Source of the DNA: Candidatus Rokuibacteriota bacterium
GTDB lineage: Bacteria; Methylomirabilota; Methylomirabilia; Rokubacteriales; CSP1-6
DNA length: 13,743 nucleotides
NCBI GenBank assembly: GCA_016201575.1
Contig: JACQCN010000226.1
Span: forward strand, 1 to 13,743
Reading direction: 5' to 3'
A model generated the notes under the pieces. It was not told where the DNA came from. It saw nothing but the letters and a program-made list of their open reading frames with translations, and did not search any database. Within the stretch, counting starts at the first letter, position 1, and each line of letters begins with the position of its first letter. Below, in pieces: positions 2,436 through 3,092 of the stretch. The position numbers and the translations under genes are program-made.

Positions 2436-2978
2436 CTAGCCCTCCTCCGGCGCTTCGATGACGACGCGGTCCTCGCCGTCGTGCTCCTTGAGGCGCACCG
2501 CCACGCTTTCGCGGCGCGAGGTCGGCAGATTCTTGCCCACGTAGTCGGGGCGGATGGGCAGCTCGCGGTGCCCGCGGTCGATCAGGACGGCGAGCTGGAT
2601 CATCTTCGGACGGCCGAGGTCGATGAGCGCGTCGAGGGCCGCCCGGATGCTGCGCCCCGTGAACAGCACGTCGTCGACCAGGATGACCGTCTTGCCCTTG
2701 ATCGGGAAGGGGATGTCGGTGCCGCGCACGACCGGCTGGTCGGTCTTGAGGCCCAGGTCGTCGCGGTAGAGCGTGATGTCGAGGGTGCCGACGGGCACCT
2801 TGGTGCCGTCGATGGCGGCGATCCGCTCGGCCAAGCGCTGGGCGAGCGTCACGCCGCGGGTGCGGAGGCCGACGAAGACGAGGGCGGCGGCGCCGCCGTT
2901 CCGCTCGAGGATCTCGTGGCTGATGCGGGTGAGGGCCCGCTCGAGGGCCGCCTCGTCGAGCACCTGGGCCTTGATCAC
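2436..2978 (-). CDS. pyrR: PyrR bifunctional regulator / uracil phosphoribosyltransferase
   Basis: PyrR binds UMP or PRPP and a hairpin in pyr mRNA to repress the operon when pyrimidines are abundant; many members also have weak uracil phosphoribosyltransferase activity. The protein shows the type I phosphoribosyltransferase fold: [13 protein letters not shown] at 15-27, [15 protein letters not shown] at 35-49, the PRPP loop [13 protein letters not shown] at 98-110, and the PyrR-typical [17 protein letters not shown] at 134-150. I chose GTG at 2978-2976, giving 180 residues, because it matches the usual length near 180, sits 6 nt after GGGGGGAA, and overlaps the leader ORF stop (GTGA). A TTG seven codons upstream lies in the terminator tail and is less likely. 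It is the first gene of pyrR-pyrB-pyrC-carA and is preceded by a PyrR-binding hairpin, so it is probably autoregulated. Confidence 0.95.
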
Positions 2979-3052
2979 GCCAAGTTCCCCCCGGGGCAAA
3001 AAAAATGCCCCTCGCGGGGCTCGGGCACTCGGACGGCACTGGACGGCTTCAT
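2975..3052 (-). CDS. Putative 25-residue leader peptide upstream of pyrR
   Basis: Short ORF beginning MKPSSAVRV and ending GGNLA. Its ATG lies 5 nt after AAGGAG, one of the best Shine-Dalgarno sequences in this GC-rich window. It reads through the terminator hairpin and the U8 tract (the tract gives Phe-Phe), and its TGA overlaps the pyrR start as GTGA. The AAGGAG is also the 3' strand of the lower stem of the PyrR-binding hairpin. Inference: PyrR-UMP would block ribosome entry here. Without PyrR, a translating ribosome would disrupt the terminator and deliver translation to pyrR. The peptide has no recognisable domain and its sequence may not matter. Translation is not proven. Confidence 0.5.
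2998..3020 (-). terminator. Intrinsic terminator / attenuator in the pyrR leader
   Basis: Minus-strand GCCCC-GCGA-GGGGC (5-bp stem with a GNRA-type tetraloop) is followed by A and eight U. It sits inside the leader ORF and 20 nt before the pyrR start, as expected of a transcription attenuator. The CGAGCC entering its 5' side (3018-3023) can instead pair with GGCUCG of the PyrR-binding hairpin (3065-3070), giving an antiterminator. Its 3' arm GGGGC can also pair with the downstream GCCCC (2993-2997). The stem is short but very GC-rich. Confidence 0.72.
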
Positions 3053-3057
3053 CGGGT

Positions 3058-3092
3058 CTCCTTGCGAGCCTCGCGGGGCTCGCTTAAAGGAG
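3058..3092 (-). promoter_or_regulatory. PyrR-binding hairpin (anti-antiterminator) in the pyr leader
   Basis: The transcript can fold with a lower stem CUCCUU/AAGGAG, a one-sided UAA bulge, a 7-bp upper stem GCGAGCC/GGCUCGC and a six-nt loop CCGCGA. The core AGCCCCGCGAGGCU matches the published Bacillus PyrR-loop consensus (ARUCCNGNGAGGYU, recalled from the literature) at all positions but one (U to C), and the loop fits CNGNGA. It lies between the promoter and the leader ORF in front of pyrR. The 3' lower-stem strand AAGGAG is the Shine-Dalgarno of the leader ORF. A 14-nt segment of the upper hairpin is repeated exactly in the downstream terminator (3010-3023). Confidence 0.8.

Follow-up and report, generated by a model that had tools for sequence, protein, structure and literature searches.

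PyrR is a textbook regulator of pyr operons that has been studied mainly in Firmicutes. In mycobacteria, PyrR acts by translational repression, with the Shine-Dalgarno sequence (SD) lying within the PyrR hairpin. The pyrBI operon of Escherichia coli works without PyrR: its leader is translated through a terminator, and UTP is sensed by polymerase pausing. A further arrangement was reportedly proposed in 1997 by Van de Casteele et al. for Thermus strain ZO5, where PyrR attenuation ahead of pyrR-pyrB-bbc-pyrC is said to rely on a translating ribosome, not an antiterminator, to prevent the terminator; a PyrR site that overlaps the ribosome-binding site of the leader is likewise said to be a trait of this type. 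The PyrR attenuators of Bacillus subtilis use an RNA antiterminator (reviewed in PMC7430163).

The window analysed here, meaning the whole stretch of 13,743 nucleotides of Candidatus Rokuibacteriota DNA (phylum Methylomirabilota), contains a pyrR-pyrB-pyrC operon whose leader can be compared with each of these systems. B. subtilis shares the binding loop and a terminator located 5′ of pyrR, but the RNA antiterminator used there is not detected by folding at this locus, where a leader open reading frame (ORF) fills the gap. The mycobacterial system shares the SD within the hairpin, a layout also found in a neighbouring Rokubacteria clade, whereas the source locus has a leader ORF and a terminator in addition. 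Leader translation across a terminator is the likeness to E. coli pyrBI, which uses UTP pausing without PyrR. The closest match is Thermus ZO5, where the logic, as reportedly proposed, is the same: a translating ribosome takes the place of the antiterminator. At the source locus the leader ORF spans the terminator in a conserved frame and AAGGAG forms the 3′ arm of the hairpin; following the reported proposal, the leader is classed with the Thermus kind.

The pyrR-pyrB-pyrC operon is probably governed by a PyrR attenuator coupled to translation. The steps of the following scheme, from UMP sensing and PyrR binding through ribosome loading to termination and restart, are inferred from sequence comparison. 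When UMP is plentiful, PyrR-UMP would clamp the hairpin whose 3′ arm is the SD of the leader; no ribosome would then load onto the 25-codon leader, the terminator would fold and transcription would end ahead of pyrR. Under UMP scarcity the hairpin would be unclamped and a ribosome would start at the leader ATG, follow the polymerase through the terminator stem and hold that stem open, before stopping at the TGA that overlaps the pyrR GTG, where it could restart. The ribosome would stand in for the Bacillus antiterminator.

Table 1. Features of the locus in window coordinates; the order along the minus strand is PhyH-like gene, promoter, PyrR hairpin, leader ORF with internal terminator, pyrR, pyrB and pyrC.
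Feature	Coordinates	Strand	Evidence or remark
Sigma-70-like promoter, TTGACA-18-TAAAGT	3139-3110	-	1 found vs 0.0 expected in shuffles
Predicted PyrR-binding hairpin, bulged	3092-3058	-	RF00515 match, covariation
Shine-Dalgarno AAGGAG of leader ORF	3063-3058	-	Within 3′ arm of PyrR hairpin
Leader ORF, 25 codons + TGA	3052-2975	-	Spans terminator, reaches pyrR start
Intrinsic terminator, GCCCC-GCGA-GGGGC, then A U8	3020-2998	-	Single terminator-like site in 2900-3300
GTGA overlap (pyrR GTG 2978-2976, leader TGA 2977-2975)	2978-2975	-	
pyrR, 180 aa, bifunctional pyr operon regulator/uracil phosphoribosyltransferase	2978-2436	-	NF003549
pyrB, aspartate carbamoyltransferase	2433-1492	-	NF002032 406.8 bits, cut-off 263
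pyrC, dihydroorotase	1495-194	-	TIGR00857 436.8 bits, cut-off 279.05

The features that the preliminary description had read from the letters check out at their coordinates on the minus strand (table 1): the CUCCUU/AAGGAG lower stem and CCGCGA loop, the GC hairpin with U8, and the 25-codon ORF with its SD and its TGA overlapping the pyrR GTG. The PyrR hairpin consists of that lower stem, a UAA bulge, a 7-bp upper stem and the loop at 3076-3071; AAGGAG is separated from the leader ATG by 5 nt. The terminator has a GC stem at 3020-3007, followed by an A and by U8 at 3005-2998, and is the single terminator-like site between 2900 and 3300, where shuffles give 0.2. Free folding of the whole leader stretch is unremarkable (z -1.67, with 13 of 200 shuffles folding equally well). 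The transcript likely starts just 5′ of the hairpin, judging from the promoter sequence, and a promoter-like element precedes the hairpin in many relatives too (by eye). The -35 hexamer TTGACA (3134-3139) shares bases with the stop codon that closes the phyH-like gene upstream, whose product matches Pfam PF05721. PyrR itself lies well above the NCBIfam equivalog cut-off (NF003549, 258 bits vs 138) and has matches among PyrR chains in the PDB. The pyrC ATG overlaps the pyrB TGA as ATGA (1492-1495). Since the same kind of overlap occurs there, it is not specific to the leader, and the leader/pyrR overlap by itself is little proof of coupling.

Relatives were gathered through PyrR, which matches in 58 of 60 genomes at E 1e-3 (source genome included), in 54 of the 60 at 1e-30 or better, and at 1e-15 in 32 of 38 further or repeated genomes. 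The closest named relative among the matches listed is Candidatus Rokubacteria CSP1-6, with 81% PyrR identity. The resulting set comprises 81 Methylomirabilota leaders, one per genome. The Rfam PyrR model RF00515, suggested for a scan in the preliminary description, aligns full length to 3094-2998 (46.1 bits, E 8e-4) but stays below its gathering score of 54, so that the leader is missed at the default threshold; the bulge, the CNGNGA-type loop, the paired stems and the adjacent pyr gene (pyrR) that mark the element are all found at the hairpin. The model also matches in Thermus composti, a named control. If the reading is right, default Rfam scoring would overlook this layer of control in uncultured phyla: the RF00515 cut-off is passed by 6 of 95 genomes of the phylum, whereas a hairpin pattern finds the element in 79 of the 81 leaders, the other two (L017 and L188) being cut by contig ends.

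The hairpin pattern has one match in the source genome and none when reversed. A version with TTTWAA matches in 26 of 95 genomes, class relatives only (its reversed control has one match, in G088), and the other version in 52 of 95, this genome included (reversed control, none). Pooled, the two give 80 places in 78 of the 95 genomes, with 17 lacking an exact match, and 79 of the 80 places lie at pyrR (compared by eye). The exception, G075:C351:29054-29084, is an identical further copy of a PyrR hairpin, lying on a different contig and away from any detected pyrR; it may be an assembly duplicate.

Pairing in the hairpin was compared on a 35-nt fixed template, which is fitted by 85 of 93 leaders (the 81 from Methylomirabilota and 12 named others); L003, L017, L188, L058, L074, L079, L084 and L087 fall outside it. 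Across 65 distinct hairpins 94.4% of cells are paired, a percentage inflated by the template, which demands at least 5 of 7 upper and at least 4 of 6 lower pairs. Double-sided changes occur at 10 of the 13 pairs, and sliding the register by 1-2 lowers pairing to 41-55%. Of 1000 shuffles, none attains the observed pairing or as many pair types, and 52 attain the number of pairs with double changes. In 28 of the 65 the outermost bases do not pair. Within the lower stem that bears the SD, U-A/C-G and C-G/U-A exchanges are seen at two pairs, and the register shifts with the SD retained.

Leaders with this hairpin come in two layouts, both of which carry the same SD within the 3′ arm. In the leader type (44 of 79 leaders) a short ORF and a terminator follow, as in the source genome. 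The direct type (35 of 79) has pyrR's own start codon behind the SD, so that PyrR is slightly extended at its N terminus. Terminators were detected in all 44 leaders of the first type and in none of the 35 of the second. The direct type (L005-L007, L009-L016, L018, L020-L027, L162-L169, L171-L176 and L191) forms a Rokubacteria clade; in L164, L166 and L191 the start rule picked an out-of-frame GTG 2 nt 5′ of the in-frame one. Its layout is the mycobacterial one, with the SD of the first pyr gene in the hairpin and no terminator, a layout that the source locus does not have.

In all 18 leader-type genomes of the window's order the leader ORF stays open across the terminator and runs into an ATGA or GTGA overlap with pyrR (17 by the fixed start rule; L029 is counted via a GTG lying 2 nt beyond its first ATG, which is at once followed by TGA). 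L118, of the wider class, likewise needs a start codon other than the rule's choice. The distances from leader start to pyrR in the order are 62, 65, 71, 74, 77, 80, 83, 86 and 161 nt, all 2 mod 3, and frames 0, 1 and 2 of the 18 leaders hold 0, 20 and 5 stops. L001 and L003 are closely related yet carry the U-run in different codon phases (stop-T 28 and 29), and both end in GTGA; the frame is thus held by compensation rather than by fixed sequence. The leader peptides differ (by eye), so translation itself seems to matter and not the peptide. The spacing of 161 nt belongs to L114 and L180 (genus g20), which show an apparent second inverted repeat after the terminator (by eye), with the ORF open and a GTGA end. 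The preliminary description had proposed that PyrR hides the SD of the leader and that a ribosome opens the terminator, and had named compensatory stem changes and a kept frame with its overlap as the points to look for in relatives. Both are present, and as far as sequence can speak they support that proposal.

An antiterminator was sought by folding the transcript (partition function) up to the terminator 3′ arm, with that arm excluded, and measuring how far the 5′ arm pairs with upstream RNA when the hairpin is free, when it is blocked (standing for PyrR bound) and when the upstream sequence is shuffled; rows of identical DNA and L054 were dropped, and the test is thermodynamic, ignoring pausing. 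For Firmicutes (best matches listed) the three values are 0.72, 0.38 and 0.56, and free minus bound exceeds 0.2 in 35 of 50 loci; for Methylomirabilota they are 0.44, 0.43 and 0.53, with 2 of 43 above 0.2 (Mann-Whitney p 8e-11 for free minus bound between the two groups). The window's order gives means of 0.44, 0.45 and 0.55, with none of 18 above 0.2, and the source locus 0.57, 0.47 and 0.69. The test recovers the Bacillus-type state in Firmicutes and detects none in the window's order. Other phyla (best matches listed) give 0.38, 0.25 and 0.52, with 4 of 11 above 0.2, and may have an RNA-only component.

These values make it unlikely that the locus is an attenuator of the Bacillus type, in which an RNA antiterminator would pair with the terminator 5′ arm, PyrR would stabilise an anti-antiterminator and leader translation would be incidental. 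The shared binding loop (RF00515) would suit such a device, as would the few relatives and other non-Firmicutes leaders that exceed 0.2, but it leaves the kept leader frame unaccounted for. A 13-nt string, GAGCCCCGCGAGG, is common to the PyrR and terminator hairpins (within 3007-3085), so that GGCUCG could pair with CGAGCC; folding at the source locus does not favour this alternative pairing.

Folding also bears on how PyrR would act within a ribosome-dependent attenuator, and marks ribosome entry as the weak step of the scheme. Even without PyrR, the SD-masking lower stem is worth -8.2 kcal/mol (the wider class is weaker, with a mean of -4.8); pairing probabilities of the SD bases in the unbound RNA are 0.80-1.00, and folding gave no alternative structure in which the leader SD is exposed. 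Because the stem is already stable, PyrR would have to shift the balance of a kinetic race in which 30S binding competes with the polymerase, rather than flip a two-state RNA.

About as improbable as the Bacillus-type device is purely translational control in the mycobacterial style, with PyrR acting on pyrR translation through coupling to the leader, and the terminator being secondary or a general brake. The SD does lie within the hairpin, and in the terminator-less clade beside the window's genus pyrR's own start stands behind the same SD, so that hiding the SD alone seems sufficient there. Such control gives no place, however, to a terminator present in every leader-type leader, nor to a frame kept exactly across it throughout the order, and pure coupling is weakened by an SD-like GGGGGG of pyrR's own (-9.4 kcal/mol at the source locus). 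Of the coupled pyrR translation put forward in the preliminary description, the TGA/GTG overlap therefore stands, but coupling is maybe not the sole route to pyrR.

The strength of this second site varies. SD-like sequence at the pyrR start averages -6.5 kcal/mol in the order (-3.0 to -10.0), and the SD of the leader start -8.1. The wider class, 26 leader-type rows of genera g28, g29, g30, g31 and g32, shows further variants. In g28 (12 rows) the ORF crosses the terminator and overlaps pyrR by 11 nt in 9 rows and by 16 nt in two, the pyrR start of L122 being unclear; its leader SD averages -8.9 kcal/mol, and pyrR has no SD of its own (mean 0.0, L122 included). In g29 and g32, where the pyrR-start sequence averages -8.8 kcal/mol, the ATGA overlap is seen in 4 of 6; the ORF of L181 ends 4 nt further in, and L118 has the overlap only with a second GTG (by eye). 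In g30 and g31, where pyrR's own SD averages -7.2 kcal/mol, the ORF ends inside the terminator hairpin in 7 of 8 (L129 and L185 of g30; L124, L128, L131, L186 and L190 of g31), and L116 passes the terminator and stops 10 nt before pyrR. Given this variant and the SD-like sequence at pyrR in the order, coupling between leader and pyrR may not be needed. The g30 and g31 leaders would still fit a ribosome-dependent attenuator: a ribosome halted in the hairpin would keep it open, and coupling to pyrR would be optional.

A device like E. coli pyrBI, in which polymerase pausing at low UTP would let the ribosome catch up and PyrR would be minor, is very improbable: a leader ORF does cross a terminator ahead of pyr genes, but reading of the sequence from the start codon (3052) to the terminator (3020) shows no U-rich pause tract, and the covarying PyrR loop would go unaccounted for. 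PyrR, and not UTP-limited pausing, would then be the sensor. The preliminary description had seen the Bacillus, mycobacterial and E. coli mechanisms combined in this leader; the SD in the hairpin and the leader running through the terminator bear it out, and the antiterminator and the pause tract are the parts that fall away.

Least credible of all is that the ORF is a chance product of GC-rich DNA poor in stops, for although any one leader would be open and in the right phase by chance with a probability of 10-32%, and frame 2 is stop-free as well in 13 of 18, single-base-shuffled spacers in random phase give 4.2 of 18 against the 18 observed, a tree of 17 rows requires at least nine length changes, every one a multiple of three (approximately 5e-5 at 1/3 each), and with the start rule unchanged none of 62 Firmicutes leaders among the matches listed has its end 12 nt or less from the pyrR start.

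Beyond the phylum, named loci were taken from the best 80 matches listed, which are not independent, and were split into Firmicutes and others from record titles, partly from recall. The layout was scored where an ORF starts 3-14 nt after the hairpin AAGG (or an AGAGG/GAGG-like end), crosses the terminator and ends no more than 12 nt from the pyrR start. Among the matches listed it occurs in 8 of 16 non-Firmicutes (Omnitrophota, Nitrospina, Ignavibacteria, Syntrophaceae and others), a count that includes L058 by exception: its terminator is not called by the script and its arm position was set by hand, five terminator-less Firmicutes rows were given no such exception, and the count without it is 7 of 16. 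Three of the remaining ORFs enter the terminator and end 5′ of pyrR, one stops before the terminator, and four loci have no hairpin by pattern. The 62 Firmicutes loci divide into 16 with an early stop, 18 without a start codon, 16 with an ORF that ends elsewhere and 12 without hairpin or terminator. In L096 (Zixibacteria), a GTG after the hairpin is in frame with pyrR through the terminator (by eye), a possible fused form. The preliminary description knew of no published example of this exact combination in an LPS-bearing lineage. Among the phylum's 79 leaders 44 share the layout and it recurs in other phyla, so it is not unique, and the logic was reportedly proposed for Thermus already. No description of the layout in Methylomirabilota appears among the literature matches listed, whose coverage takes in few subscription journals. 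The breadth of the layout, the frame statistics and the apparent single switch to the mycobacterial layout are what this sequence analysis adds.

That switch was examined on a quick-search tree built from PyrR and PyrB of 63 loci, a tree of the operon's own genes and not of species. All 34 direct-type rows fall on one branch (SH-aLRT 98), requiring one state change vs a mean of 21.2 in shuffles; g1, the source genus, is sister to that branch, and the sampled outgroups are of the leader type. The leader type would consequently seem to be ancestral within the order, with the terminator apparently lost once. One genome, G094, holds hairpin loci of both kinds on two contigs (G094:C253 and G094:C42), and contamination is likely since its direct-type copy groups with genus g15. 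A wider reading, which we hold tentatively and at slightly less than even confidence, is that outside Firmicutes the pyr switch generally takes the form of ribosome-driven PyrR attenuation, that this form is ancestral in Methylomirabilota, and that a single terminator loss in one Rokubacteria clade fused pyrR to the leader start and produced a purely translational switch.

If true, one protein and one RNA loop would drive three devices: an attenuator made of RNA alone, another that depends on the ribosome, and a translational switch. The latter two would occupy adjacent branches within one family, separated by one inferred change, and would offer a natural before-and-after pair for the passage from a transcription attenuator to a translational switch.
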